From the NCBI GenBank assembly GCA_027021615.1, contig JALUTY010000083.1, positions 1-64,000 on the forward strand: a stretch of DNA of 64,000 nt, written 5' to 3'. The position numbers and the translations under genes are program-made. Shown in pieces: positions 3,835 through 20,043 of this stretch; positions within the stretch are counted from its first letter, which is position 1, and every line of letters begins with the position of its first letter. This stretch comes from a bacterium (GTDB lineage Bacteria > Desulfobacterota > Deferrisomatia > Deferrisomatales > Deferrisomataceae). Under the pieces are notes generated by a model, which was given only the letters and a program-made list of their open reading frames with translations, searched no databases and was not told the DNA's origin.

Positions 3835-4049
3835 GGTCGACCTCGCGGAGTGAGTAGATGTAGGAAACAAGGGTGTCCGTCCCCGGTCCTGCTTCGCCCT
3901 CGGGAGGAAGTACCGGCTCATCATAGGCGGGTCAAACGGGCCCGTGCACCGCCCGGACGAGATTCTTGCCCGTTGCCCCCGGTTCCGTGGGGAACTCCGG
4001 GGAGCGATCCCCCCCTCCGTCCGTTTGGGGAGCGCACGGGAGCCCAACC

Positions 4050-4084
4050 GGAAAGAGGGCCGGCGAACCGCCGACCCTCTTTCC
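4050..4084 (-). terminator. Very stable 16-bp stem-loop downstream of the small peptide gene
   Basis: In the minus-strand transcript, GGAAAGAGGGUCGGCG pairs along its whole length with CGCCGGCCCUCUUUCC around a 3-nt loop. The one non-Watson-Crick pair is U-G in the minus-strand RNA but C-A in the plus-strand RNA, which fits selection on the minus-strand transcript. It lies 20 nt after the stop of the 20-codon peptide and about 215 nt before the synthase-like gene. No U-run follows, so it may be an attenuator, processing site or stabilising 3' end rather than a classical terminator. Confidence 0.55.
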
Positions 4085-4104
4085 GAACCTCGTGCCGTGC
4101 TTCT

Positions 4105-4167
4105 TCAGCAGGGATGCACGGTGGAGGTCCCCACGATCTTGGGCTTTACATAACGGACTTTTTTCAT
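4105..4167 (-). CDS. 20-residue peptide gene, RiPP-precursor-like
   Basis: A 20-codon frame, beginning MKKVRYVKPKIV and ending STVHPC, with a near-ideal ribosome site AAGGAG 7 nt before the ATG. The YxxPxI motif (Tyr6, Pro9, Ile11) resembles the recognition motif YxxPxL of leader peptides read by PqqD-like elements in lasso-peptide and some radical-SAM pathways. The last residue is Cys20, preceded by His-Pro. It lies 103 nt after the Ig/Big-domain gene on the same strand and is followed by a strong stem-loop. No maturase (radical SAM, PqqD or ATP-grasp) is in the window. The next gene is the membrane-fused synthase-like enzyme. It could instead be a leader peptide for attenuation of that gene. 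Function unknown. Confidence 0.6.
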   Translation of the reverse strand: MKKVRYVKPKIVGTSTVHPC

Positions 4168-4193
4168 GGCATCGCTCCTTGGTTTTAGGGGCA

Positions 4194-4227
4194 GTGACGG
4201 ATGATCGGTGACGAGTGACGGGTGACG
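4194..4227. repeat. Degenerate GTGACGGG-type tandem repeat
   Basis: GTGACGGATGATCG, then GTGACGAG, GTGACGGG and GTGACG in a row give a degenerate 8-bp period. The same sequence type, in the other orientation, lies at 30185-30220. It occupies the short gap between the Ig-domain gene and the 20-codon peptide. Confidence 0.6.
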
Positions 4228-4233
4228 TTCCCC

Positions 4234-4288
4234 CGTCCCAACGTCCCAACGTCCCAACGTCCCAACGTCCTAACGTCCCAACGTCCCC
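4234..4288. repeat. Octamer tandem array (CGTCCCAA)n overlapping a gene end
   Basis: Seven head-to-tail copies of the octamer CGTCCCAA, with one variant unit CGTCCTAA at 4266-4273 and a last unit CGTCCCCA. Read on the minus strand, the array encodes the last residues GTLGR of the Ig/Big-domain protein, and the variant unit supplies its TAG stop. The matching array at 16403-16466 does the same for the paralogue. Confidence 0.9.
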
Positions 4289-7200
4289 AGGTACTCGTCC
4301 TTCCACACGTCCTCGTCGATCTCCACGTACCCCAAGGTGTCGCCGAGCTCCACCCGGTCCCGGCGGCGCTTCACCTCTCGGACGAACATCCCCTTCTCCG
4401 GCGACGCAAGCGTCCAGGTGGTCTTGCGGCCTTCCAGGATCACGATCGGCTCCCCCTTCTCCACCTCGTCCCCCGGCTCCACCAGCCACTCGGCCACCTT
4501 GATGCGGTCCCGCTCCTGCCGCTCCTCCAGCCGAGGCACGAACACCGTCCCGTAGATTCGCCGGAGCTCTTCCTCCGTGGGCGCCCGGCTCGTGTGCCGG
4601 GCCTCCACGACCACCATACCGGGCCGTCGCCCCGCCCGGAACACCACCTGGGCCTCGCCGTGGCGGTCGGTCTGCACGACCTCCGGGGTCACCGCACCCG
4701 CCCCCTCCAGCACCGCAAAGCTTACCGGCACGTCGATGTTCGGGTTGTCGTGGATATCGGTGACCCGCACCGAGAGATCCGCCGTGCTCCGCCCGTCTGC
4801 CGGAAGCCGCACGGCCGAGGAGACCAGATCGATCTTGGCGGGTGCGTCCGCCCGCAGCTCAATCTGCACGCTCCCAGCGACCCCCCACTCCTCGGACGAG
4901 GCCGTCATCGTCACGAAACCGGCCACCGTGCCCGCCCGGTACTCGGCCTCCGCCACTCCCCGGTCGTCCGTGCGACCCCCGCGTAGGACCTTGAGCCGCC
5001 CGTTGTCGTTGCCAAGGGCGAAATGAACCCGGGCTCCCTCGATGGGGTTCCCCTGAAGATCCAGGAGCACCACCTTGATTCGGCTTCGGCTCCGGCCGTC
5101 CGCCGTGAGCCACGCCGGATCCGCCGTCATCCGCAGGACCGCCCGGTCCGCCGCACCCCTCTGGGCTCTGGGAAAAAGCTCGATCGCCACCGTGGAGGCC
5201 ACGTAGGTATTGAGCCACCCCGCGCCCACGTCCCCTGTGGTCAGGTCCTTGGCGATCACGAGCGCCGTCTTCGCCGCAAACCCGGCCGTGTACGTGGCCG
5301 TGACCTCACCAAAGGCGTCCGTCACTCCGCCCCAGCGCACCTCCACGTCGTCCACATCGTCCATCCGGGCTTCCCGATCCTCGACGCGGCCTCCACCCAC
5401 CACCCCTGTGTACTCGCTGGTGGTGGAGAGGGTTAGCGCCAGCTCGTGACCCGAAACCTCGTCGCCGTTGGCGTTCACGGCTTTGGCCACGAGCCGGGTG
5501 GTGCTTCTCCGGTCCGCCGGAAGCAGGGAGTCCCGCGCCGTCACGGTCAACCGCACCCGGGTATCGAACGACACGGGCCGGCCCGCGGGCTGGGTGGTCA
5601 CGTTGCCGGCTTCGTCGGCGAGCCGCACCACCACCGGTACCTCCGTACCTTCGTCGTCCCAATCCACGGTGTAGGTGCCCCGGTAGGACCCGGGGGCCGT
5701 CTCGGCCATCGGGACCCCGGTCACGACGCCCTCGATGTCAAAGGTGGCATACCCCCCGGCCTCCCCTTCCAGGGTCACGGTGAGCACGTCGCCGGCCACT
5801 AGTTTTCCGCTGAATCCGGCTACGGAGAAGAAATCGTTCTTCGCCGATGCGATCACCGGCGGGGTCGTATCGTTCAAGGCATCGAGCCCCACCACCGCGA
5901 GCTCCGGTCCCGCACGGTCCGATGTTCCGTAGGGGTCGGCCATGTGGACGACCACCCGGTGAAGGCTCTTGGTGGGCCCCACATCCGCGTCGGTCACCGT
6001 ATAGGTCGCCGTGTACCGGCCCGTGCGCCCCACCTCCGCAAGGGCAAGGCCCGTGGCCAACCCCCCGAGGTCCGCCGTCACCCTGGCTCCGCTCTGGCCC
6101 GTGACCGTGACCGTTACGATCTCGCCGGGCTTCACCGGCTTTCCAAAGGGCTCCACCTTGACCCCGGTGATGGCCGGGCCCTCGCCCGCCACCGCCTCGG
6201 CCGACACCACTTCGCTCGGCTCACTTCGGTTGCCGGCCCGATCCACGGCCACCACTACATAGCGGTAGGAAAGCCCCGGCACCACGGCGGTGTCGACGAA
6301 CGAGAGTTCCCGCGTGGTTTCATAAGGCGCTCCGGAAAGATCCGGGCCCACCCCCTCACCCCGATAGATCTCGTAGCGGTCCACATCGGCCGAAGGGCTC
6401 GCCTCCCACGTGATCTCGATCTCCCCCGGCCACGGCGCCGAGGCCAGGATCCGGCCTGCGGGCACGGGGTCCGGAACATCCGTGTCGATCGTGACCGCCG
6501 GACCCGGGAGGCTCGCAGTCTCCCCCGTGGCAGGGTCGGTGAGGGTGCCGATGAGGGCAAAGGTGCCGTTCACGCCGTCCGCCACGACCACCTTGCCCAC
6601 GTACACCCCGTCGTCCACCTCGGTCATGGACACATTCGTGGCCACGCCTTCGATCGTGAACGTGGCCTCCTTGTCCGGCGCGCCTCGCAATGTCACCGCG
6701 ATCTCCTGGCCCGCACCGTAAAGGGCCTTTTCGGCTCCCAGGGCGATCACGGCGGCTTCGTTCCCCGGCCCCAGGTCCTCTCCGAAGGAGTCCCCCACCT
6801 GGAAATCCACCAAAGGTGACGCCAGCTGCGACCAAGCTCCCCGCGGCACGTCTCGATCCGGCTCTGCTCCGATCACCAGATACCGGGCCTGTCGGAGCAA
6901 TGCGATGAAGTCCTCCGCCTTGCCCGTACCCTCTTCGAGCTCCACCCCGTTCACGTTCAGGGAGATCCGCCCCCTGTTCCATCTCAGCACCACCCTCACC
7001 CGGTCCCCGATCCCAACCGGCTCTGGCAGCGGTACGAAGGCGGCGGGAAGGATCCTCGCCCCGAAGTCTTCCAACCGCAGCTCCGGCACCGGCTCCCACC
7101 AGTGGATCTCAAGCACCAACGTCCGGTGCCAAGACGCATCGGCGAGACTGAACAGCGCCTCGGTCTCGGACTCGTTCCCCCGGTAGAAGGTGAGTGCGAT

Positions 7201-7461
7201 CACGCCGTTGTCCGGGTTCAGCGGCGTTTTCTCCAGATCGAAGTACAGGTACGTTCCGCCCCTTGTCACGTCTCCCCCCCGCGGGGCGCGCCACGTCTTC
7301 CCCGGGGCCCCGAAGTCCCCCTGGGGACCACCTTGAGGCGCCCCATCAACCCGGATCGAGGCTTTGCGGGCATCCAGCACCACCCGCGCTGCAGCCGGGC
7401 CGGCTGCGGCACAAATCACCGCAGCTGCCGTAAAACCCGCGATCCATCGAACGGTCTTCAT
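4270..7461 (-). CDS. Secreted Ig-like (FN3/Big-1) protein with C-terminal biotinyl/lipoyl-like domain, copy 1
   Basis: 1,063 aa. Residues 1-25 are a signal peptide ending PAAA. Next come a LamG/concanavalin-like beta-sandwich (about 30-190), Ig-like strands, a fibronectin type III domain (about 340-430, WEASPSADVDRYEIYRGEG) and further Ig-like segments. Three Big-1/invasin-like domains lie at about 640-990, each with the ADGRS/LPADRRS start and DxxGNP core. The last 60 residues match the biotinyl/lipoyl hammerhead fold, with PGDEVEKGEPIVILEGRK then GDTLGYVE, and Lys1013 sits where the modified lysine of EAMKM would be. Start is the ATG at 7461, with GGAGG upstream. It lies 22 nt after the 2,945-aa cytochrome. 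The 1,198-aa protein at 16447-20043 is a paralogue. Likely a surface or periplasmic scaffold. Partner unknown. Confidence 0.88.
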   Translation of the reverse strand: MKTVRWIAGFTAAAVICAAAGPAAARVVLDARKASIRVDGAPQGGPQGDFGAPGKTWRAPRGGDVTRGGTYLYFDLEKTPLNPDNGVIALTFYRGNESETEALFSLADASWHRTLVLEIHWWEPVPELRLEDFGARILPAAFVPLPEPVGIGDRVRVVLRWNRGRISLNVNGVELEEGTGKAEDFIALLRQARYLVIGAEPDRDVPRGAWSQLASPLVDFQVGDSFGEDLGPGNEAAVIALGAEKALYGAGQEIAVTLRGAPDKEATFTIEGVATNVSMTEVDDGVYVGKVVVADGVNGTFALIGTLTDPATGETASLPGPAVTIDTDVPDPVPAGRILASAPWPGEIEITWEASPSADVDRYEIYRGEGVGPDLSGAPYETTRELSFVDTAVVPGLSYRYVVVAVDRAGNRSEPSEVVSAEAVAGEGPAITGVKVEPFGKPVKPGEIVTVTVTGQSGARVTADLGGLATGLALAEVGRTGRYTATYTVTDADVGPTKSLHRVVVHMADPYGTSDRAGPELAVVGLDALNDTTPPVIASAKNDFFSVAGFSGKLVAGDVLTVTLEGEAGGYATFDIEGVVTGVPMAETAPGSYRGTYTVDWDDEGTEVPVVVRLADEAGNVTTQPAGRPVSFDTRVRLTVTARDSLLPADRRSTTRLVAKAVNANGDEVSGHELALTLSTTSEYTGVVGGGRVEDREARMDDVDDVEVRWGGVTDAFGEVTATYTAGFAAKTALVIAKDLTTGDVGAGWLNTYVASTVAIELFPRAQRGAADRAVLRMTADPAWLTADGRSRSRIKVVLLDLQGNPIEGARVHFALGNDNGRLKVLRGGRTDDRGVAEAEYRAGTVAGFVTMTASSEEWGVAGSVQIELRADAPAKIDLVSSAVRLPADGRSTADLSVRVTDIHDNPNIDVPVSFAVLEGAGAVTPEVVQTDRHGEAQVVFRAGRRPGMVVVEARHTSRAPTEEELRRIYGTVFVPRLEERQERDRIKVAEWLVEPGDEVEKGEPIVILEGRKTTWTLASPEKGMFVREVKRRRDRVELGDTLGYVEIDEDVWKDEYLGTLGR

Positions 7462-7483: not shown

Positions 7484-10400
7484 TCACCAGGGGGTCACCT
7501 TGTTCCACCCCGGCCCGTAGCTCGTCCCGGATCCGCCCTCCCCCGCCGCTTCAGCAGGACCCCGTCGATGACAGTTTTGGGACGTCGTCCAGTTCGCCAA
7601 CCGTTCACCGTTTGTCAACGATCCGGACCTCGTGTCCTTCTGATAGAGGTCTTGCCAAGTGTTGTGATTGGTGTCCAGGCAGTTGGTGATCATCAGCTTC
7701 GGCAACCGGGACGCGTGGGGGTTGTGGCATTTTCCGCAGTTGAACGTATGGAACTGGACCTGGAGAGTGTTCTCGTCCACCGTCAACTCGACCGTGCCTG
7801 TCGCGATCTGGGGCGTGCTCCCGCCGTCGCTCGTGCCCCACTCGAAACTCTTGTACGCATAGGCCCGGGAGGCGGGGTTGGTGGGAGGGCTGTAGCCGTA
7901 GCCCCACGAACCCCTGTACGAGTACCCCCTGCCGGTCTCCTGGGCCAATCCCATGGACTGATCGCTCCCGCTTCCTCCTGGCGTTGCGTTGCCGCCGCGC
8001 CACGTGTTCCGGAAGATGTTCACCGCCTGTGCCCCTGTCCCCCCGATCACCGCGTTGGAATGGCCGTTGGTACCCACCCACAGGTTTTCGCCCGTGGTGT
8101 AGTCCATGTTGTCTACGTCGGTGCCGTGGCAAAGGGTACACAACCCAGCCATGGTCGAGAGGGTCTCCCCGTTGTTCGGGTTGCCGCTGTTCTGGTCGAT
8201 CCAGTACCCCCCCACCCCGTTGTTGTTGTTCGGGTCCGCGCTGCCGCGGGGGACAAAACCGTAGCGGTTCGTCCCGGTCCAGTTTCCGTCCATGCTGCTC
8301 TGGGGGGCCCCGTCCTCGTTGTAAGGGTTCCCCTTCCAAGTACCTCGCAGATACGGTTGCCCCGCGACGGTATCGCCGCTCGCCTTGTTCAGATCGTGTA
8401 CATCATGGCAGTAGCTACACCGGATGTCCGCCACGTTGTCCACGGTCTCGCTCATCCCGCCGGTCGCGTAGGGAGTGCCCGACACAGCGGCCGTCCCGTT
8501 CGTAAAATTCACCGAGTGGGTGGACTGAATGGCAGCCGTCTTGTATGAGAACTCGGGCACCGCGCTGGTCCAGGTCGCGATCGTCCAGTTGGAGACGTCC
8601 AGGCTCCCGTAGTCGTAGGAGAGCCCTCCGGTGCTCGCGTTGTTGTTCACCCCCCACTCCGAGACCCCGTTGCTGTCGTGGCAGTTCCAGCAGATCTCCG
8701 CCTCGGTCGTTCCGGAGGTCGCGCTGCCGCCCAGGTGGATCCCCCCGTCCATCGTGTAGTCGATCCCGAGCTGGGTCTGCATGTTTAGCGTTTGTCCGCT
8801 ACCGTCGGTCCGGTTGTTCCAGCTCGTCGGCGGCACGGGGATGTCCACCCCCCCGGCTATGCCGGTATGCCCGGCATGGCACTTCTTGCACTGGGCATCC
8901 CAGTCCGACACCAGGGAAAGGTCGTCACCCGTGGTCTGCTTGAGGTGCGACCCGTAAGCCGTGGTCTTGCCGGTGGCATCACCAGCCGGCCACACCACCT
9001 GGGGCGCCCCTGCGAAGCTCCCGTCGTGGCACTCCACGCAGCTCACCTTGAAGCTCTTGGTGTGGTCGTGGCAATCGATGCACACCCGTCCCTGGTTGTG
9101 GTTGCCGGCCCGAGGAGTATTAGCGTGGGGCTGACCCGCGTCCTGGTGACAGCGGTCGCACACGCCGTCGTCTGCCGCTGTGGTCGGGTCGAGGTCGGTC
9201 TCGGCCGTCAGGGTCACCCCGGTCGCATCCGCCCCCATGCCGTCCACGATGGTGGTGTTGATCATCGCGATGTTGGACGTGCCATGGGGGTCGTGGCACT
9301 TCACGCAGGGGTAGTCGTAGGCCGCGTTGCTGCCGTAGTTACCCGTGACCGTGGTGGAGTGGTCGCTCGCCTCGACCGTGGCATCGTAGCCCAGGGTGCC
9401 GGCCGTGGTCTGGCCGGGCTGGTGGCAGTCGGCGCAGATGGTCGCCTCGGTGAACGAACCCCGGAGCCGGTCCGTGTCATCCAAGGCCCCCGAGATGTGG
9501 GAGGCGGTCTGATCGTGGCACACGGTGCAGGCATACCCTGGGCCTGTGTTCCCGGTGCCCGTGTAAGTTCCGCCGTACCCATGGCCCCCGTCGTCCACGG
9601 CATAGTACGTGTCCTTTGCCGGAGCCGCCACTCCGCCGGTCACCGGTGCGCTGTAGGCGGGCGAGCTCTGATTGTGGCACAGCAGGCAGTCGGGCAGCCG
9701 GTACGAGGCCGTGCCCCAGTTCTGCTTGGCCAGGGTGGCTCCCACCTGCCCGTTCACCGTGGCCGTGGAGTGACACCGGTTGCAGATGTCGGTGCCGGTG
9801 TCGAAGCTCGTGCCCAGGGTCGAGACGGTGCCCGGGGTGCCGTTGTAGTCAGAGATATCGTTCCATCCTCGGGTAAGGTCCCCTTCGAAGTCCACCGTAA
9901 AGGCCCCCTCCACGTGGTCCCGAGTGGGGAACGACGAGAACCCCTGGTCGCTGGCCGCGCCCGGCAGGTCAAACCCTCCGCCTGGGTGACACGCATCCGC
10001 CCCACACCCCGCCTGGAGGGCACCCGCGCCGTCGACCACCCCATGGCACACGGTGCACGCGGGAGCGTGGTAACTGTATGGCGGACCGTAATCGTAGGGG
10101 GATCCGGGGCTCGCGTGGGTCTTGTGTTTCCCCTCGGTAAACTCCTGACCGAACGTCCCCGTGGGGCGGGTGTCCACGTCGTGGCAGGTGCTGCAGTACG
10201 CCGTGGTGTGGTCGTTCCACACCGGGGTGACGTCGGTGCCCTGGGTTGCAGCGCTGAAGTCCGCGCCATGGCAGTAAAACCCCGAACAGGTGGCGTTGGC
10301 CGTTCCTGCCCCGTACTTGACGCTCAGGTCGGTTTGGGTGATCACCTCGTCACCGTTCGCCCGGGGGCTCCCCGATCCGTCCAGGTCGATCTGCCCGTTG

Positions 10401-13400
10401 GTGTGGGCCGTATTCCCCCCGTTGTCCACATGACAGTACACGCACACGTAGTCGTGGCTCTGGTCCGCAGCCGGCGGCGCAACTCCGGCCACATGCACCT
10501 GATGGGCGTCTGGCAGGTCACCCGCCGTCCAAGCCATCGTCGGGTACGTGGTACTATCCCGGTAATAGTGACACGTCTCGCAGTCGGGGTCGTTGCCTGC
10601 GGTGTCTGCATCGGCCCACCCGGCTCCCCCATACGTCGGAGTTGTCCGCTCGTAGTGGCAGTCCACATTGGCACAGGTGCCCGTGGCCGGGTCGTACGTG
10701 GCGGTGTTGTGGGTATCGTCGCCGTAGGCGCCCGCCCCCACCAGGAACGTCTGGAACAGATCCCCCGCTCCCGTACCGCCATACAGGTCCACCCGCTGGT
10801 CCCCCGAGTCCACATTGTGACCGCTTCCCCCCGGATCCGGGTGACAAAACGCGCAGATGGTCACCTGCTGACTGTGGGTGTACATGCTGGTGCTGAAGTC
10901 ACCGTACCCCAAATACTGGCCGATGGCACGAACATGCCTGTCATGGGCACCGGCCTCGTCGTCCACGTAGGCCGGGGTACCGCCGGAACCGTCAGGCCAA
11001 TACTGGCCCGTGGCCGGATCACCGTGGCATCCGGTGCACGAGGGGCTGAACGCCTTGTTGTGGGGGTGGCAGTCGGAGCAGTCGCCCGGGTTTCCGGTGC
11101 CGCCCGGATGAGGCCCGGTCGACGCCAGCTGATCGTCCACGAACGCGAAGGTTGTGTCGGTACCCGGCGTGCTGCCCTCGTGGCACTCTTGGCACATGCT
11201 CGAGAACGGAGCGTCGCTGTCGGCGTAGCTCGTGCCCGTGGTGCTCTGCCCCGTCGTGTCGTCGGTGAAGGCGAGCGCGGTCTGCTCGGTGGGCTCTGCC
11301 GGGGGCGGGCCGGCAGGCAGGCCGAACTGCGCCTTATCGTAAAGCTCGCGCTGGACCATCGACAGGTTCGAGTCATCTCCGTGGGGATCGTGGCAGTTCA
11401 CGCACTCCGGTGCAAAGCTCCAGGTGTACTTCGGCGTGTAACCCGCGTTCGACATCTCCGTGGAGGAATGGGTCGTGAAGGTGGAGATGTCGAGGCCCGT
11501 GGCCGGCCCGATCGTACCGGACACGTGGCAGCCCGTTCCGGTGTACGAGCACGAGAACTGTACCCCAGCCGTGCCCGCGTCCTGGTCCTTCAGGCGGAAG
11601 GGGTTCGTGCCGTCCAGCTGGGCCGGTTGCAGAGCGTTCGTGGCCGCGTCATGGGGCACGTTGCTGTCATGGCACCCGGCGCACGCCACGGTCTTTGAGC
11701 CGTGGCCCCGGGTGTCGTACTCGGTCTGGTTGATCTTGGACTGGGCCCCGGTGTTGTCCCAGACGAAGTCGTTCACGTCCGCCGTGGAGGCCGCCCCCCC
11801 GGTGGTCGCGTGGCACACGTCGCAGGTGAAGTGGCCGTTGGTGGTTACGTCGTAGTCCCACCCGATGTTGCTGCGGCCGCCGTGGCAGTTGGCCGTGGAG
11901 CACGTGCCGTTCACCCCGCCCGTCCCCGCGGTGAACGTGAAGTACCCCAAATCTGCCGTGGTGAGCGCCGGGTCCACGTCCACGTTGTACTGCATGTTCA
12001 CGTGGGTCGCCGGGTTGAAGCTGCCGCCCTTGCCCTTGACCGTGGTGTAGTGGCATGCCCCGCAGTCCGAGTAGAGGTTCTCGCCCACGTGCTTTTCGTG
12101 CTTGTTCCCCTTGGGCGTGCCGTCGATGTCCTGGAGATCGGCGTAGTCCGGCCTGGAGCCGTGGCACTTGGAGCACGAGCCGTTCGGGTTGTCCCAAGTG
12201 ATCGGAGTCCAGGTGCCGCTCACCCCCTTCTGGCGCGTGTAGGTGAACTCGCCGAACGGAGGCACCCGGTCGTTCCCCTGGCTGTGACAGTAGGTCTGGG
12301 TGCAAGCTCCGTAGCCCGAGCCCACCACCGTGTCGCCCCCGTACGTGCTGTTCGAGTCCAACCTGGGGTCGGTCGTGTCAAACGCGACGTCGGCCAGGCC
12401 GTTCACGTGGCTGGGATAGCTCACCGTGGTCCCGTCGGACGTCGTTCCCACGTGGCAGAGGTTGCAGCCGTACCCGTATTCGCTGGACGAGGTGTGCTTC
12501 AGATGGGCGTTGCTCCGGGGAGGCGCGGAGGCCGTGGCTCCGTGACACGTGCCGCAGGCGCCCGTGGCAGCGTTGTTCCATTCGGGCGTGGTGTCGGAGC
12601 CGCCATTGTTCGCTGGGAACGTGGCTGCGTCGTCTCCGTGGCAGTACAGGGTGTTGCAGGTTCCGTAGGTGGTGGTGTCGTTGGGTCGGCTCCCTTTGGC
12701 CAGGCTATAGGCTCCGTTGGGATTCGATCCGTCAAACACCACGTCCACGTTGTTCCGGATCGTACCCGGGCTCGTGCTCATCAGGTTGTTGAACTCGGTG
12801 GCGTCGGCCACCCCGGTTTCGTTGTGGGTGCCGGCGTTCTGGTGGCACTTGCCGCAGTCGAACCCTGCGGTGGTCACGTGCTTGGCGTGGGCGTTGGTGG
12901 CCGGGGGAAAGCCGTGGCAGGCGTCGCACTGGAGCGGCATGAACCCGTCGGCCGTGCCGCCGGCGTCCGAGTCGTAGTCGTGGGAGTGACATCCGGTGCA
13001 GTCGTTGCCCTGCTCGTTGGAGGTGTAGTCGTTCAGCTCGATGTGGTTCCCGTCGGTGTTCGTCATGGCCGTGGTGCTGCCCGGACGGTTGGCGTCGACA
13101 TGGCAGGCCACGCACATGTTGTCGGTCTGCGTCACCCCGTCGTCGAACGAATTCGTTCCCGTCCTCGCCTCGAACACCACCGAGACCGTCGTGGTGCGGT
13201 CGGCCCCGGTGGTGGGCTCCGAGTAGTTCTTGATCTCCAGCGAGGGCCGCACCATGTAGATGTTCGGGTTCCCGTTCGTGTTCTGGGCCAGGCCGTGGGG
13301 CTCGTGGCACGCCTCGCAGTTGTACGCGAAGCTCTCCGCGTTGGGATCGTGGGTCGACCCCGCCGTGAACGACGTGTTCAGGTTGCCGTGGCTCGACACC

Positions 13401-16321
13401 TGGGCCTGGGCGGGCGAGCCGGCCGTGGTCTGGTGGCACGCCCCGCACAGCCCGCTCACGGTCGACCCGGTGGCCACCGTGTTCACCGTGGCCCGGAGGC
13501 GGTTGCCCGCAAAGGTGGTGTCGTCGGCGTTGTTCACGTGGGTCGAGGCCGTGTCGTGGCAGTCGCCGCAGGCCTTGGCAGCCGCCGGGTTGCCCGAGGC
13601 CGGGTAGGTGCCCGTGGCCAGGTTGTGCCCCGTGACCTCAGCACCGTACGTGGTGTCGTCCCCCAGAACGTCCGGGGCGGTTCTCCCGGTTCCGTCGGCA
13701 AGGGAGGTTCCGGGATCGGTGCCGTTGTGACAGTTCACGCAGGGAATCGTGTTGGTGGTGGCCCAGTAGCTCTTGGCCAGGTCCCGGCCCACCTGACCGT
13801 TGATCGAGGCCGTGGAGTGGCAGTTGTCACAGGCGCTCGTGGCGGCGAGCTGAACGTCCCCCACGAAGTCCACGTTGCCGTCCACGTGGGTCGGGCTGGG
13901 CGTGGTCGCCCCCGGGCCCAAAGCCCCCTCGCCCCCGGAGCCGTGGCAGAGGGAGCAGTCTGCCGAGAAGTCGGCGATGCTGTTGTGACACGAGCTGCAG
14001 CCCGGAGCCGTGCCTCCGTGCCCCTCCACGATCGCCGGTCCGTTGGCTGCGGTGTAATGGGTGGGGTGGTTGTTCGAAGTAACCGCCTTCTCCGGAACCG
14101 ATGCGTTCGCTGGGTCGCCGAACACTCCGTGACAGGTTCCGCAATTTCCGGTGGTCTGATCCGTCCACACCGGAGACTGGGTCACGCCCCCGTTGTTCAA
14201 CGTGGCGCCGTGGCAGTAGATCCCCGTGCATGTGGCTGTTGCATTGGCGAACGCTTCGCTGCCGGTTATCGGCAATCCCGCTTGTGAGAGATCAAAGGCG
14301 ACAAGAGCCGGGTCGGTCAGGCTGCCCCGGGCGTGGTCGGGGCTGTAACTGTTGTTCGTGGGGTCCTCCCCCGCATGACACGTACGGCACGGGTAGTTCT
14401 TTTGGGGCGCCGTGGGGTTGTCGTGGGCGTAATGGTTGCCGCCGTCCGGGTTGGAGGACAGGGAGTTGAGGTGGCAGGCCTCGCACTCCTCGCCGGTGTC
14501 GCCGATCTCCCAGTTGCCGGCGTTGGCCGGGTACCCGTTCCGGGTGGCCTCGGTGCTGGCCGTGGTCTTGTATGCGTCGAGCCATACGGGGGCCGACCGG
14601 GTGGTCTGGGTCGTGTCGCCCTTGCCGGTGATCCCGATGGTGGGATCGTCGGGGTTGTGGCAGGTGAGGTTCGAGCAGGTGTTCGTGCCGCTATCGTAGG
14701 TGCCGCTGGCGTTGAACGCCGGGTTGAACGCCACCTCCACGTTGGCTGCGGGCACGGCCGTGCCCTGGTCCGAGCCCCACCCGCTCTGGTTGTGGTTGTT
14801 GCCGTAGTGGCACTCGGAGCACCCGTAGCCCATCTTGTTCACGTGGGTGTCGTGCACGCCCACGGCGTCGGGGTTGTCGGGGTGCGTGTCCGAAGCGTTC
14901 GGGGGAAACCCATGACAGGTGTCGCAGGCCTGGGCTGCACCGAAGTTGGTGGAGGAGCTGTGGCCGTCGTGGCATCCGGTTCCCGAAGCGCAGGTGGTGG
15001 AGGTCAGCGTGCCCCCCAGGTGATTGGTGCCCCCCGCGCCGTTGTCGTTGAGGCTCTGGCCCGACGGGATCTGGGTGTGGCAGGCGGTGTTGTCGCAGGT
15101 GCCGTAGGTCTGCCCGAAGATGTACCAGTCTCCGTTGTACTTCGTGTCGTCGTCCGGCAGCCGGGTGTCCTCCCCGGCCAGCGTGCGGCGGATCATGGTG
15201 TCGTTCTGGAACGTAGAGTCCGCCGCAGTCGTGCCGTGCTGGTCGTGACAGTCCAGGCATCCGGCGCTGCGGCCCGTACCGGCGTCGCCCCCGTCCGCCG
15301 GGCTGGGCGTGTGGGGGGCGTGGCCCGCATGGCAGTGCCGGCAGTTGGAGTAAAAGTTGGTACCAAGCGTTGAGGTGCCCGCGGTGGTGTCCTCGGCCAG
15401 GGTAGCTTTGAGCCGGGGCGCGGGGTCAAACACCCCGTCCCCGTCCACGTCGTGGGACAGCTCGTGGCAGGTATCGCATCCAATCCCCATCTTTCCGTGA
15501 CCGTACAAGCCATAGTTGTCCGTGAGCCCACCGTTCTCGTCCTTGGTGTGGCACACGTCGCACTCGGTGAGCTGCACGGTCTGGTTCGTGGCGGGTTGAC
15601 CCGAATGGCCCGAGGTGTTCTGAAGCACCAGAAGGCGCTCCCCGTCCGGGCTGGCGTGCTTGCCGTGGCACCGGGTGCAGTAGACAGGGTTTTCCGCAAC
15701 GGCCACGTCGTTCAGTGTGATCTTCGTGTTGTCGGCTCCGTGGGCGGCGGGAGCCACGTACCCGTTGAGGTTCCCTCCGTCGACGTCGTGGCAGTTGGCG
15801 TTCTGACAGGTCTTGGTGGAGAGCTCCGCGTCGGAGAGGTCCGCAGGGCTCCCGATCAAGGTGGTACTCACCGCAAGGAGCGTCTGGGACGCATCGACGC
15901 CGTGGATGTTGGCGTTTCCGGCCCCGTCCGCGGTCATGCCAGACACGGTGTGACAGTCGAGGCAGTCGAAGGCCGTGGAGTCCTGGGCGAAGGTGCTCTT
16001 GGTCACGTCCACGGGGTGCTTCGACAGCGATGTGGCGTCGAAGTCGTGGTCCACACCCTTCATTCGATCTCGGTTCTGCACCGACACGGCGTTGGCCTCG
16101 TGGCAGAAGAGGCACCGGACGGTGGGGTCGGTATCGGTGATACCCAGGTCAAAGGTCTTTTGGGACTTCCTCAGCAGGTGGGTGCCCGCGACCATCTTCC
16201 CCGCGCTCACGGCGTGGCAGTCGTAGCACAGGGCCCCGGGCGGGTAGTGGGTGGCGCCCGAGGGCACTGCCCACGCCACAGCCGCCGCCACGATCGCACC
16301 GACCCAGGATCTACGGTTCAT
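7484..16321 (-). CDS. Giant multihaem c-type cytochrome, about 64 haem-type motifs
   Basis: 2,945 aa with a signal peptide (about 1-23) followed by THYPPG. By my count it has about 52 CXXCH, about 10 CX4CH (for example CTGIYCH, CNTLYCH, CANVDCH), one CX5CH (CASGTGCH) and one CX6CH (CSYTGTGCH). The CX4CH...CXXCH pairing is the signature of the Geobacter CxxxxCH...CXXCH domain family. Such proteins are exported and act as haem chains in extracellular electron transfer. Start is the ATG at 16321 (MNRRSWVG), with GAGGCGGG just upstream. The frame stays open further up only because of GC-rich sequence inside the paralogous Ig gene. Internal repeats are visible: two modules share VNGQVG/INGQVG then LAK. 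The C-terminal third has fewer haems, with shared segments QTQLGIDYT and EAEICWNCH also found in the 1,665-aa cytochrome. Electron partners are unknown. Confidence 0.93.
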   Translation of the reverse strand: MNRRSWVGAIVAAAVAWAVPSGATHYPPGALCYDCHAVSAGKMVAGTHLLRKSQKTFDLGITDTDPTVRCLFCHEANAVSVQNRDRMKGVDHDFDATSLSKHPVDVTKSTFAQDSTAFDCLDCHTVSGMTADGAGNANIHGVDASQTLLAVSTTLIGSPADLSDAELSTKTCQNANCHDVDGGNLNGYVAPAAHGADNTKITLNDVAVAENPVYCTRCHGKHASPDGERLLVLQNTSGHSGQPATNQTVQLTECDVCHTKDENGGLTDNYGLYGHGKMGIGCDTCHELSHDVDGDGVFDPAPRLKATLAEDTTAGTSTLGTNFYSNCRHCHAGHAPHTPSPADGGDAGTGRSAGCLDCHDQHGTTAADSTFQNDTMIRRTLAGEDTRLPDDDTKYNGDWYIFGQTYGTCDNTACHTQIPSGQSLNDNGAGGTNHLGGTLTSTTCASGTGCHDGHSSSTNFGAAQACDTCHGFPPNASDTHPDNPDAVGVHDTHVNKMGYGCSECHYGNNHNQSGWGSDQGTAVPAANVEVAFNPAFNASGTYDSGTNTCSNLTCHNPDDPTIGITGKGDTTQTTRSAPVWLDAYKTTASTEATRNGYPANAGNWEIGDTGEECEACHLNSLSSNPDGGNHYAHDNPTAPQKNYPCRTCHAGEDPTNNSYSPDHARGSLTDPALVAFDLSQAGLPITGSEAFANATATCTGIYCHGATLNNGGVTQSPVWTDQTTGNCGTCHGVFGDPANASVPEKAVTSNNHPTHYTAANGPAIVEGHGGTAPGCSSCHNSIADFSADCSLCHGSGGEGALGPGATTPSPTHVDGNVDFVGDVQLAATSACDNCHSTASINGQVGRDLAKSYWATTNTIPCVNCHNGTDPGTSLADGTGRTAPDVLGDDTTYGAEVTGHNLATGTYPASGNPAAAKACGDCHDTASTHVNNADDTTFAGNRLRATVNTVATGSTVSGLCGACHQTTAGSPAQAQVSSHGNLNTSFTAGSTHDPNAESFAYNCEACHEPHGLAQNTNGNPNIYMVRPSLEIKNYSEPTTGADRTTTVSVVFEARTGTNSFDDGVTQTDNMCVACHVDANRPGSTTAMTNTDGNHIELNDYTSNEQGNDCTGCHSHDYDSDAGGTADGFMPLQCDACHGFPPATNAHAKHVTTAGFDCGKCHQNAGTHNETGVADATEFNNLMSTSPGTIRNNVDVVFDGSNPNGAYSLAKGSRPNDTTTYGTCNTLYCHGDDAATFPANNGGSDTTPEWNNAATGACGTCHGATASAPPRSNAHLKHTSSSEYGYGCNLCHVGTTSDGTTVSYPSHVNGLADVAFDTTDPRLDSNSTYGGDTVVGSGYGACTQTYCHSQGNDRVPPFGEFTYTRQKGVSGTWTPITWDNPNGSCSKCHGSRPDYADLQDIDGTPKGNKHEKHVGENLYSDCGACHYTTVKGKGGSFNPATHVNMQYNVDVDPALTTADLGYFTFTAGTGGVNGTCSTANCHGGRSNIGWDYDVTTNGHFTCDVCHATTGGAASTADVNDFVWDNTGAQSKINQTEYDTRGHGSKTVACAGCHDSNVPHDAATNALQPAQLDGTNPFRLKDQDAGTAGVQFSCSYTGTGCHVSGTIGPATGLDISTFTTHSSTEMSNAGYTPKYTWSFAPECVNCHDPHGDDSNLSMVQRELYDKAQFGLPAGPPPAEPTEQTALAFTDDTTGQSTTGTSYADSDAPFSSMCQECHEGSTPGTDTTFAFVDDQLASTGPHPGGTGNPGDCSDCHPHNKAFSPSCTGCHGDPATGQYWPDGSGGTPAYVDDEAGAHDRHVRAIGQYLGYGDFSTSMYTHSQQVTICAFCHPDPGGSGHNVDSGDQRVDLYGGTGAGDLFQTFLVGAGAYGDDTHNTATYDPATGTCANVDCHYERTTPTYGGAGWADADTAGNDPDCETCHYYRDSTTYPTMAWTAGDLPDAHQVHVAGVAPPAADQSHDYVCVYCHVDNGGNTAHTNGQIDLDGSGSPRANGDEVITQTDLSVKYGAGTANATCSGFYCHGADFSAATQGTDVTPVWNDHTTAYCSTCHDVDTRPTGTFGQEFTEGKHKTHASPGSPYDYGPPYSYHAPACTVCHGVVDGAGALQAGCGADACHPGGGFDLPGAASDQGFSSFPTRDHVEGAFTVDFEGDLTRGWNDISDYNGTPGTVSTLGTSFDTGTDICNRCHSTATVNGQVGATLAKQNWGTASYRLPDCLLCHNQSSPAYSAPVTGGVAAPAKDTYYAVDDGGHGYGGTYTGTGNTGPGYACTVCHDQTASHISGALDDTDRLRGSFTEATICADCHQPGQTTAGTLGYDATVEASDHSTTVTGNYGSNAAYDYPCVKCHDPHGTSNIAMINTTIVDGMGADATGVTLTAETDLDPTTAADDGVCDRCHQDAGQPHANTPRAGNHNQGRVCIDCHDHTKSFKVSCVECHDGSFAGAPQVVWPAGDATGKTTAYGSHLKQTTGDDLSLVSDWDAQCKKCHAGHTGIAGGVDIPVPPTSWNNRTDGSGQTLNMQTQLGIDYTMDGGIHLGGSATSGTTEAEICWNCHDSNGVSEWGVNNNASTGGLSYDYGSLDVSNWTIATWTSAVPEFSYKTAAIQSTHSVNFTNGTAAVSGTPYATGGMSETVDNVADIRCSYCHDVHDLNKASGDTVAGQPYLRGTWKGNPYNEDGAPQSSMDGNWTGTNRYGFVPRGSADPNNNNGVGGYWIDQNSGNPNNGETLSTMAGLCTLCHGTDVDNMDYTTGENLWVGTNGHSNAVIGGTGAQAVNIFRNTWRGGNATPGGSGSDQSMGLAQETGRGYSYRGSWGYGYSPPTNPASRAYAYKSFEWGTSDGGSTPQIATGTVELTVDENTLQVQFHTFNCGKCHNPHASRLPKLMITNCLDTNHNTWQDLYQKDTRSGSLTNGERLANWTTSQNCHRRGPAEAAGEGGSGTSYGPGWNKVTPW

Positions 16322-16402: not shown

Positions 16403-16466
16403 CGTCCCACCGTCCCACCGTCCCACCGTCCCACCGTCCCACCGTCCTAACGTCCCAACGTCCCAA
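16403..16466. repeat. Octamer tandem array (CGTCCCAC/CGTCCCAA)n overlapping a gene end
   Basis: Eight head-to-tail octamers. Five are CGTCCCAC, one is CGTCCTAA (16443-16450) and two are CGTCCCAA. On the minus strand the CGTCCTAA unit provides the TAG stop of the 1,198-aa Ig-domain gene, and the following units encode its final GTLGR. The array lies in the gap before the giant cytochrome at 16321. Confidence 0.9.
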
Positions 16467-19400
16467 CGTACTCGTCCTTCCACACGCCTTCGTCGATCTC
16501 CACGTACCCCAGGGTGTCGCCCGCCTCCACCCGGTCGCGGCGGTGCTTCACCCTCCGCACGAACACCCCCTCCTCCGGGGCAGTGAGCGTCCATGTGGTC
16601 CTGCGCCCCTGCAATACCACCAACGGCTGCCCCTTCTCCACCTCGTCCCCCGGCTCCACCAGCCACTCCGACACCTTGATCCGGTCCCGTTCCTGGCGCT
16701 CCTCCAGCCGCGGCACGAACACCGTTCCGTAGATTCGCCGAAGCTCTGCTTCCGTGGGCGCTCGGCTCGTGTGCCGCGCCTCCACGATCACCGTGCCCGG
16801 TCGCCGACCCGCCCGGAACACCGCCTGCGCCTCCCCGTTCCGGTCCGTCAGCACCGTGTCCGGCCTCACCGCCCCCGTCCCACGCAGCACCTTGAACGCC
16901 ACCGGCACCTCGTGGCTCGGGTTGCCGTGGACGTCGGTCACCCGCACCGAAAGCCCTGTCTCGGTCCGGCCGTCCGCCGGCAGCCGCTCGGCCTCCGCCA
17001 GCAGGTCGACCTTGGCCGGCGCGTCGCTCATCAGTACGATCTGCACCGCCCCTGTCACCCCCCACTCCTCCGCGGATGCCGTAACGGTCACCGTGCCGAT
17101 CGCGGTGCCCGCCCGGTACAGGGCCTCGGCCATCCCTCGCTCGTCCGTGCGGCCTACGCGCAGCACCTTGAGCCGCCCGTTGTCGTTGCCCAGTGCAAAC
17201 CGAACCCGGGCGCCCTTGATGGGATTCCCCTGAAGGTCCCGCAGCACGGCCTTGATCCGGCTCGTGCTCCGGCCGTCCGCCGTGAGCTTTGCCGGCTCCG
17301 CCGTCACTCGCAGCGCTGCCCGGTCCTCAGCCCCCCTCTGGGCCCTCGGGTAGAGCTCGATCGCCACCGTGGAGGCCACGTAGGTGCTCAGCCACCCCAC
17401 CCCCACGTCCCCAGTGGTCAGGTCCTTGGCGATCACGAGCGCCGTCTTCGCCGCAAACCCGGCCGTGTACGTGGCCGTGACCTCCCCGAAAGCGTCCGTC
17501 ACCCCTCCCCAGCGCACCTCCACGTCGTCGGCGTCTTCCAACCGGGCTTCCTTTCCCTCGATCCGGCCCCCGCCCACCACGCCCGTGTACTCGCTGGTGG
17601 TCGACAGGGTGAGCGCCAGCTCGTGCCCCGACACCTTGTTTCCGTTGGCGTTCACCGCCTTGGCCACGACCCGGGTGGTGCTCCTTTGGTCCGCCGGCAA
17701 CAGCGCATCCCGCGCCGTCACCACGAGCCGCACCCGTGTGTCGAACGTGACCGGTCGGCCCGCGGGTCGTGTGGTCTCGTTGCCGGCTTCGTCGGCGAGC
17801 CGCACCACCACCGGCACCTCGGTGCCCTCGTCGTCCCAGTCCACGGTGTAGGTGCCCCGGTAGGTCCCTGGCTCCACCTCGGTCATCGGGACGTCCGCAG
17901 CCACACCCTCGATGGAGAACGAGGCGTACCCTCCCGCCTCCCCCTTCATCGTCACCGTGAGCACGTCCCCCGCCACCAGTTTCCCGCTGAAGCCCGCCAC
18001 CGAGAAGAAGTCGTTGTCCGCCGACGCGATCACCGGCGGGGTCGTGTCGTGCAGGGCGTCCAGGCCCACCACCGCGAGCTCCGGCCCGGCCCGCTCGGCC
18101 GAGCCATAGGCGTCGGCCACGTGCACCACCACCCGGTGCAGCGTCTTGGTCGGGCCCACGTCCCCGCCGGTCACGGTGTAGGTGCCCGTGTACCGGCCCG
18201 TGCGCCCCGCCTCCGGCAGGGGAAGGCCCGCCGCCAGGGTGCCGAGATCCGCCGTCACGGTGGCCCCGCTCTGGCCCGTCACCGTGATCGTTACGGTCTC
18301 GCCGGGCTTCACCGGTTTCCCGAAGGGCTCCACCGTGACCCCGGTGATGGCCGGGCCCTCGCCCGCAACCGCCTCGGCCGAAACGATGTCGCTCGCCTCG
18401 CTTCGGTTTCCCGCCCGGTCCACCGCCACCACGGCGTAACGGTATTCCAGCCCCGCCACCACGGCGGTATCCGTGAACGAGAGCTCCCGCGTGCTCTCGT
18501 AGGGATCGGCGGACAGGTCCGGGTCGGCCCCCTCGCCCCGGTAGATCTCGTAGTGGTCCACGTCGGCCGAGGGGCTCCTCTCCCAAGAGACCGCGATCTC
18601 CCCCGGCCATGGTGAGTCAGCCAGAATCCGGCCGGCCGGCACCGACTCAGGCGCGGCCGTGTCGATCGTGATCCCCGGGCCCTCCAGGCTCGCCGTCTCG
18701 CCCGTGGCCAGGTCGGTCAGGGTGCCGGTGAGGGCGAAGGTGCCGTTCACGCCGTCGGGCACCGCCACCCTGCCCACGTACACTCCGTCGTCCACCTCGG
18801 TCATGGACACCTCGGTGGCCAGCCCCTCGACGGCGAACGTGGCCGTCTTGTCCGCCGTTCCCCGCAGGGTCACACCGATCTCCTGACCCGCCCCGTAAAG
18901 CGCCTTCTCCGCCCCCACCGATGCCACCGAAAGCTCCGCCACGGTCACCGTGACCTCGGGGGGGTACTTGCTCTCCACGTCCCCGCCCTTGCCGTCGCCG
19001 AACACGGCCACGACCGAGTACCGGTAGGTCTTCCCCTGCTCGGCCGTGGGGTCGGTAAAGGTCAGGTCGTACACCCGCTCCGGTGTGAGCTTCTCGAACC
19101 GGCCGTTTCCCTCCCGGCGGTACACGAGGTACCCCTGGTTCACCCCCCGCTTCTCCGGCGGCTCCCATGAGAGGGCCACCCCCTCCGGCCCCACCGACGC
19201 CCGCAGGTTCCGGGGGTCGTACTCCGGCCCGTGCACCGCCGAAACCGGCATCGCCGCCTCCCCCACCGCGATCACGAAGTTGTCCAGCACCGCGTTCGAA
19301 AGGGGAGAGGTGGCCTCTTCGTCCCCGGGGCTCCAGTTGATCCCGAACCGAAGGGTCTTCGCCCGCTCCAGCAGGTCCCCGAAACGGTGCGGCACGTAAC

Positions 19401-20043
19401 GCGGCGGCCGGCCCTCCCGAACCTCCACCTGGTTCGTGACCTGCCGGGGATCCGGATCGATATCTTTTTGCACCGCGTCGTAGAACTTGGGTGCCGTGTC
19501 CTGGAGCCGGCCGTCCACGTACAGCTCGTATCGGCCCGCCGTATCGTCCCACGTGAGCTCCACGTGGATCCACTGCCCCGCCTCCACCGGCTCGTCCAGC
19601 AGGATCCACGGGCTCCACCAGGAGACCCCCTCTTCGTAGTACGGCCCCCCCGTCAGAAACAGCATCGGCCGGGCCGGGTCGAAGTCCGAGCTCCAGTCGA
19701 TCTGCACCAGCAGGAGGTCACGGCCTCCTTCGTCCTGCAGGGAGAACACGCTGCGCTGGTCCCGCTCCAGATCCACGGCCCGGCGCTGAAGATCGAACGC
19801 GATCACCCCTCGGGCGGCGCCCCGTATCGACATCCCCCGCTCCACCCGGACCGGAGAGCGAACCTCGAATGCCATCTCCGGGTAGGACCACCCCTCCCCG
19901 TCCCGCCCCTTCACCGCACCCGCCACCCCCGCCCCCTCGAACCCTTCCCGCACCGCCTCGGAGGCCGACACGGCCTGGGCCAGCGCGAGCAGCCCCAAGA
20001 AAAAAGCCAGCACAACCCCCTTCCTGCGTCCCTGCCCACTCAT
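16447..20043 (-). CDS. Secreted Ig-like (FN3/Big-1) protein with C-terminal biotinyl/lipoyl-like domain, copy 2
   Basis: 1,198 aa, paralogue of the 1,063-aa protein at 4270-7461 and close to it over the C-terminal 800 residues. A signal peptide (about 1-28, ending AVSASEA) is followed by a LamG-like domain with FEGAGVAG and FLTGGPYYEEG. There are two FN3 domains (WEPPEKRGVNQGYLVYRREG and WERSPSADVDHYEIYRGEG), against one in copy 1. Ig-like and Big-1-like domains follow (LPADQRSTTR, LTADGRSTSR, LPADGRTETG). The last 60 residues form the hammerhead-like module, but Arg1148 replaces the lysine seen in copy 1 (VLQGRRTTW against ILEGRKTTW), so this copy cannot be biotinylated or lipoylated at that position. 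Start is the ATG at 20043. It lies 53 nt after the 1,665-aa cytochrome. Probably exported with the cytochrome. Role unknown. Confidence 0.88.
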   Translation of the reverse strand: MSGQGRRKGVVLAFFLGLLALAQAVSASEAVREGFEGAGVAGAVKGRDGEGWSYPEMAFEVRSPVRVERGMSIRGAARGVIAFDLQRRAVDLERDQRSVFSLQDEGGRDLLLVQIDWSSDFDPARPMLFLTGGPYYEEGVSWWSPWILLDEPVEAGQWIHVELTWDDTAGRYELYVDGRLQDTAPKFYDAVQKDIDPDPRQVTNQVEVREGRPPRYVPHRFGDLLERAKTLRFGINWSPGDEEATSPLSNAVLDNFVIAVGEAAMPVSAVHGPEYDPRNLRASVGPEGVALSWEPPEKRGVNQGYLVYRREGNGRFEKLTPERVYDLTFTDPTAEQGKTYRYSVVAVFGDGKGGDVESKYPPEVTVTVAELSVASVGAEKALYGAGQEIGVTLRGTADKTATFAVEGLATEVSMTEVDDGVYVGRVAVPDGVNGTFALTGTLTDLATGETASLEGPGITIDTAAPESVPAGRILADSPWPGEIAVSWERSPSADVDHYEIYRGEGADPDLSADPYESTRELSFTDTAVVAGLEYRYAVVAVDRAGNRSEASDIVSAEAVAGEGPAITGVTVEPFGKPVKPGETVTITVTGQSGATVTADLGTLAAGLPLPEAGRTGRYTGTYTVTGGDVGPTKTLHRVVVHVADAYGSAERAGPELAVVGLDALHDTTPPVIASADNDFFSVAGFSGKLVAGDVLTVTMKGEAGGYASFSIEGVAADVPMTEVEPGTYRGTYTVDWDDEGTEVPVVVRLADEAGNETTRPAGRPVTFDTRVRLVVTARDALLPADQRSTTRVVAKAVNANGNKVSGHELALTLSTTSEYTGVVGGGRIEGKEARLEDADDVEVRWGGVTDAFGEVTATYTAGFAAKTALVIAKDLTTGDVGVGWLSTYVASTVAIELYPRAQRGAEDRAALRVTAEPAKLTADGRSTSRIKAVLRDLQGNPIKGARVRFALGNDNGRLKVLRVGRTDERGMAEALYRAGTAIGTVTVTASAEEWGVTGAVQIVLMSDAPAKVDLLAEAERLPADGRTETGLSVRVTDVHGNPSHEVPVAFKVLRGTGAVRPDTVLTDRNGEAQAVFRAGRRPGTVIVEARHTSRAPTEAELRRIYGTVFVPRLEERQERDRIKVSEWLVEPGDEVEKGQPLVVLQGRRTTWTLTAPEEGVFVRRVKHRRDRVEAGDTLGYVEIDEGVWKDEYVGTLGR

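Follow-up and report, generated by a model that had tools for sequence, protein, structure and literature searches.

A VHPC-terminated 20-residue peptide as a probable precursor of the GeoRSP radical SAM system

What is the function of a 20-codon open reading frame that sits at the end of a cytochrome operon and is too short to be picked up by standard annotation? The frame in question lies on the minus strand of a 64,000-nucleotide stretch from a member of the Deferrisomataceae (Desulfobacterota; contig JALUTY010000083.1 of assembly GCA_027021615.1, positions 1 to 64,000; the whole stretch is termed the window below), where it runs from an ATG at 4167 to a TGA at 4105 (4167..4105) and specifies the peptide MKKVRYVKPKIVGTSTVHPC. 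An earlier note on this DNA had proposed two functions for it, namely the precursor of a ribosomally synthesised and post-translationally modified peptide (RiPP) or a regulatory leader. The former is strongly supported here: the 20-mer is a short, encoded and conserved peptide linked to modifying enzymes, with GeoRSP-type genes for PqqD-like and radical SAM/SPASM proteins next to its copies or elsewhere in the genome, and from these sequence comparisons it very probably serves the GeoRSP radical SAM system as its precursor peptide.

Conservation of the peptide family

The frame is preceded by an AAGGAG Shine-Dalgarno sequence (4175..4180, minus strand) located 7 nt 5' of the ATG, in agreement with the ribosome site and favourable spacing described in the earlier note. 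By itself, a ribosome site before so short a frame carries no significance, and the peptide is considered real because it is conserved in relatives; on this ground it was confirmed as a candidate gene product that is strongly conserved and skipped by gene finders. When the bare 20-mer was used as a query against 59 genomes, full or near-full copies were retrieved from 13 other genomes at 60–95% identity, several copies per genome being common. A profile search of 345 genomes of the phylum identified the peptide in 26 (E-values mostly 1e-12 to 1e-8, with a wide gap to noise), and the conservation in related genomes on which the earlier note had made its proposal depend is thus present. Weak matches in four further genomes (G016, G021, G042 and G043), which do not possess the VHPC stop, were dismissed as chance.

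Comparison of 91 distinct loci defined a family of 17–20 residues with the pattern Y-x-K-P-x-[VI]-x-G-x-[SA]-x-V-H-P-C, which accommodates the YxxPxI motif and HPC end that had been recognised in the window copy. All true copies stop right after HPC; VHPC is almost invariant and directly precedes the stop codon, with Cys at the last position in 91/91 loci. Tyr at −15 is retained in 87 loci, Pro at −12 in 90 and Gly at −8 in 88, while a Shine-Dalgarno match is found in 87 and an ATG start in 88 of the 91. Searches of NCBIfam and Pfam returned no family model matching the peptide. A search of viral contigs yielded a single copy (L139, IMG/VR), which is labelled viral and is possibly misassigned host DNA.

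Pairing with GeoRSP enzymes and comparison with known systems

The GeoRSP families of NCBIfam comprise TIGR04302 (PqqD family, cutoff 100 bits), TIGR04303 (radical SAM/SPASM, cutoff 400 bits) and TIGR04304 (SPASM protein), and it is to these three that the proteins linked to the peptide correspond, those of the Deferrisomatales being divergent and near or below the cutoffs. A second peptide copy in the window's own genome, situated on another contig (G000:C46, L029), reads MKKIPYVKPRIAGTSSVHPC and comes after a PqqD gene (L029:4560-4877) and a radical SAM gene, for which TIGR04302 and TIGR04303, respectively, are the best of the models. The ATG of this copy overlaps the radical SAM stop codon (TCATGA), its Shine-Dalgarno sequence lying inside the enzyme gene. 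In this genome and in several relatives the operon ended by the peptide encodes a PhnD-like lipoprotein, a TPR protein, a YedE-type putative selenium transporter, a NosD-like beta-helix protein, a PqqD-like protein and the radical SAM/SPASM protein. The TIGR04303 cutoff is passed in 19 carrier genomes of the phylum sample; in Geobacter sp. AOG1 (G287/G359) the enzyme exceeds it, and the PqqD (164.8 bits, TIGR04302) and SPASM (339 bits, TIGR04304) proteins of the same organism (L106) are likewise above cutoff. TIGR04304 is also the best model, at 113 bits, for the SPASM-like gene of one Desulfuromonadales cassette, and in two Desulfuromonadales loci (L091 and L213) the gene order is radical SAM, peptide, GeoRSP-SPASM-like gene. 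The earlier note had suggested that radical SAM or PqqD genes within 20 kb would favour a RiPP; such enzymes do flank other copies of the peptide, whereas the maturase for the window copy is encoded on the separate contig C46.

Among the 345 genomes of the phylum the peptide was detected in 26, the enzyme in 25 and both in 24 (Fisher 1.4e-33, a value that ignores phylogeny), the two peptide genomes in which the enzyme was not found being G001 (81% complete) and G249. This pattern does not reflect shared ancestry only, because within families f28 (2/4) and f30 (3/8), among the genomes listed, presence and absence of the peptide match those of the enzyme. In an independent sample of 80 named genome loci, picked by the enzyme alone, the peptide lies directly 3' of the enzyme gene (within approximately 200 nt) in 34, and these adjacent loci span Deferrisomatales, Desulfuromonadales and one Nitrospirae genome. 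Whole-genome searches of 47 of the 80 genomes (every genome that lacked an adjacent copy and one more) recovered the peptide in 43, which together with 33 established by adjacency brings the number of enzyme-selected genomes holding it to 76 of 80. The pairing of the peptide with GeoRSP enzymes thus has strong genomic support. GeoRSP is a system catalogued in databases, for which no named substrate was found, and the literature searched contained no paper naming it as GeoRSP or by TIGR04302, TIGR04303 or TIGR04304, nor any on the peptide, on VHPC strings or on Geobacter RiPPs with cytochromes.

By enzyme similarity the nearest analogue is mycofactocin (MftA/MftB/MftC), with which the system shares a short precursor, a PqqD-like chaperone, a SPASM radical SAM enzyme and a conserved extreme C-terminus. 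TIGR03962, the mycofactocin radical SAM model, ranks second for the enzyme at 200–208 bits against a cutoff of 265, and MftC acts on the C-terminal Val-Tyr of MftA, a precursor of 31 aa (PMC7491314), whereas the window peptide ends in Val-His-Pro-Cys and its family occurs as many scattered precursor copies. In view of this score and this C-terminus, mycofactocin membership was rejected; the cassette also contains no recognised homologues of MftD, MftE or MftF. The combination of a PqqD-type chaperone with a SPASM radical SAM enzyme is also reminiscent of pyrroloquinoline quinone (PQQ) biosynthesis (PqqA/PqqD/PqqE), and the best solved-structure match of the enzyme is PqqE (6c8v), but the precursor is a different one, with no further recognisable PQQ biosynthesis genes in its neighbourhood. 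Similarly, the Y-x-K-P-x-[VI] segment resembles the YxxPxL leader motif bound by the RiPP recognition element (RRE) proteins of lasso peptide systems (PMC7168211, PMC5067487), while no lasso cyclase or protease and no separate lasso-type core could be recognised. One Geobacter cytochrome weakly matches Qn_am_d_aIII, an Ig-like domain. A further parallel is offered by QhpC, the gamma subunit of quinohemoprotein amine dehydrogenase, a small polypeptide that is modified by the radical SAM enzyme QhpD and functions in the periplasm alongside heme proteins; it differs from the window peptide in its greater size, its export and its high Cys content.

Under the precursor reading, the PqqD-like protein would bind the peptide, probably via K-x-x-Y-x-K-P-x-[VI], and the SPASM radical SAM enzyme, together with the GeoRSP SPASM partner where present, would modify the C-terminal V-H-P-C. 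We infer that this modification most likely involves the terminal Cys (Cys20 in the window copy), and the binding, the site and the chemistry are proposed in the same conditional sense. One peptide copy often sits with the maturase genes.

Stop codon, hairpin and downstream gene

The stop codon of the family (TGA in 71, TAA in 18 and TAG in 2 of the 91 copies) bears on the possibility that the terminal TGA is a selenocysteine codon and that the peptide continues as HPCU. The prevalence of TGA, the presence of a hairpin after it and the YedE-type putative selenium transporter of the cassette all point in this direction; however, the in-frame TGA is not conserved as selenocysteine, 20/91 copies having TAA or TAG, and the sequence past the stop is not conserved. 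This reading, to which we attach practically no probability, was rejected because copies with TAA or TAG share the VHPC terminus down to its last residue.

Approximately 18 nt past the stop codon, the window carries a hairpin with an 18-bp stem (4086..4048, minus strand; −38.3 kcal/mol, z = −4.9 versus shuffles), corresponding to the very stable stem-loop that had been reported near the peptide gene. The window copy is without a U-run; GC-rich inverted repeats, as judged by eye, also lie 3' of many peptide copies in related genomes, and the hairpin is probably the 3' end of the transcript. In a regulatory leader or attenuator, translation of the short frame would sense a metabolite or amino acid and thereby control the hairpin and the downstream synthase gene. 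The strong ribosome site and the position of the hairpin between peptide and synthase are compatible with such a mechanism, as is the occurrence of the synthase after the peptide in G001 and G002. Yet the amino acid sequence is conserved over its full length while the downstream genes vary from copy to copy, in many cases the peptide gene is the last one, the gene after it being convergent or unrelated, no codon is repeated in a run, and a leader function would not account for the co-occurrence with a single radical SAM family. As copies mostly reside at operon 3' ends instead of preceding the genes they would control, and have hairpins behind them, the leader function suggested in the earlier note is unsupported and appears extremely unlikely.

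The downstream gene (1576-4047) encodes a membrane-fused spermidine-synthase-like protein, whose translation more likely begins at 3924, or at a more internal position, than at 4047. It had been described as unusual, but it scores above the cutoff of NF037959 (fused major facilitator superfamily (MFS)/spermidine synthase) and is therefore an ordinary family member.

Giant cytochromes and a proposed role for the product

Unlike the copy on contig C46, the window copy is of the scattered type, lying 3' of a giant multiheme cytochrome and an Ig/biotinyl-lipoyl-like protein. The cytochrome (7484..16321, minus strand) measures approximately 2945 aa from its likely ATG, contains 52 CxxCH and 10 CxxxxCH motifs and ends in GWNKVTPW; its C-terminal domain, CxKCHxPH..TNCLD..NCH..WNxxTPW, is encoded at 7487..7750 (minus strand). 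Giant cytochromes also precede peptide copies in Geobacter, Desulfuromonadales and Nitrospirae, and these share the C-terminal domain in the form CxKCHxPH..LPxLM.TNCLD..NCH..WNxxTPW. The domain co-occurs with the GeoRSP system: it was detected in 21/345 genomes of the phylum, each of which carries the peptide or the enzyme, and in 40 of the 47 enzyme genomes searched. In the latter set, 44 of 93 peptides lie at most 2.5 kb downstream of the domain on the same strand, where random placement would predict 0.11. Within the window the shared domain is seen at 7487-7750 and 20103-20291 and may deserve a family of its own.

Between cytochrome and peptide lies the gene for a Big_1/Ig-like protein of 1063 aa (4270..7461, minus strand; Pfam Big_1, Invasin_D3 and Biotin_lipoyl) with a signal-like N-terminus and a C-terminal biotinyl/lipoyl-like domain. 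Its end is separated from the peptide gene by 103 nt (7461..4270 to 4167), as previously stated, and its counterpart adjoins the peptide in G001, G002, G004 and G005, with a distant version in G032. The intervening DNA contains short tandem units, GTTGGGACG, at 4198-4290, and the stretch 3900-4400 produced 47 genome-wide matches, most of them hitting the tandem repeats or the end of the Ig gene. The same gene block includes a second Ig/fn3/biotinyl-lipoyl-like protein (16447..20043, minus strand) and a second multiheme cytochrome (20097..25094, minus strand) of 1665 aa with 26 CxxCH motifs, which belongs to the GSu CxxxxCH/CxxCH family and has a degenerate C-terminal domain. Each Ig protein (4270-7461 and 16447-20043) comes after a multiheme cytochrome, and both combine signal-like N-termini with biotinyl/lipoyl-like ends, which is odd for exported proteins.

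The placement of the window copy at the end of the cytochrome operon may mean that the modified peptide is made alongside the cytochrome it serves, where it could act as a small cofactor, a bound peptide or a maturation factor; such a role at the cytochrome is possible, but we hold it only tentatively. In its specific form, and with similar reserve, we propose that the modified VHPC peptide might serve giant extracellular multiheme cytochromes as a bound mini-subunit or a peptide cofactor of a new kind, being recognised via the TNCLD..NCH..WNxxTPW domain, with each cytochrome operon tending to be accompanied by its own precursor copy. The maturase families are already known; NCBIfam, Pfam and the literature searched contained neither the precursor family nor its scattered copies or its link to the cytochrome domain.

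Two other functions were considered in this context. The peptide could assist the radical SAM enzyme as a guide or accessory, in which case the true substrate would be the cytochrome C-terminal domain; this domain co-occurs with the system and has invariant Cys residues outside its CxxCH motifs. However, the domain was undetected in five genomes that have both enzyme and peptide, the exported cytochromes are of very large size, in contrast to the short peptides on which characterised PqqD-type systems act, and the short conserved form and enzyme-adjacent placement of the peptide fit a substrate, making a guide function unlikely. Alternatively, a short radical-SAM-linked peptide present in several copies per genome might be modified and secreted as an antimicrobial or signal. 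Its sequence is almost fixed across phyla, unlike that of antagonistic peptides, the scattered copies track cytochrome operons, and in the loci read the peptide had no recognisable immunity gene, bacteriocin exporter or receptor as a neighbour; this function is consequently regarded as very unlikely.

Several observations weigh against the precursor reading or the cytochrome role attached to it. The PqqD and radical SAM proteins of the window's own genome score under the curated cutoffs (69 against 100 and 391 against 400 bits, respectively), G249 possesses the peptide and no radical SAM near family level, and in G003 the enzyme is present and the peptide undetected. Neither a dedicated protease nor a dedicated exporter could be recognised among the cassette genes. 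The excess of synonymous over non-synonymous differences among peptide copies (pS 0.75, pN 0.21) is a biased contrast because the copies were selected by protein profile. The five genomes with peptide and enzyme and no detected cytochrome domain are G009, G010, G011, G069 and G207. Finally, the cytochrome may not be the only partner, because secreted FG-GAP/ASPIC and beta-propeller proteins adjoin some other scattered copies (L039, L045, L187, L190, L211 and L216).

With the VHPC peptide as its very probable precursor, the GeoRSP system of metal-respiring bacteria gains a concrete substrate candidate, 17–20 residues long, that is immediately accessible to synthesis and experiment. The link to giant multiheme cytochromes raises the possibility that Geobacter, Desulfuromonas, Deferrisomatales and some Nitrospirae need a peptide overlooked by annotation for their extracellular electron transfer; should the product prove to be a redox cofactor, it would be a further peptide-derived one alongside PQQ, mycofactocin and their relatives.
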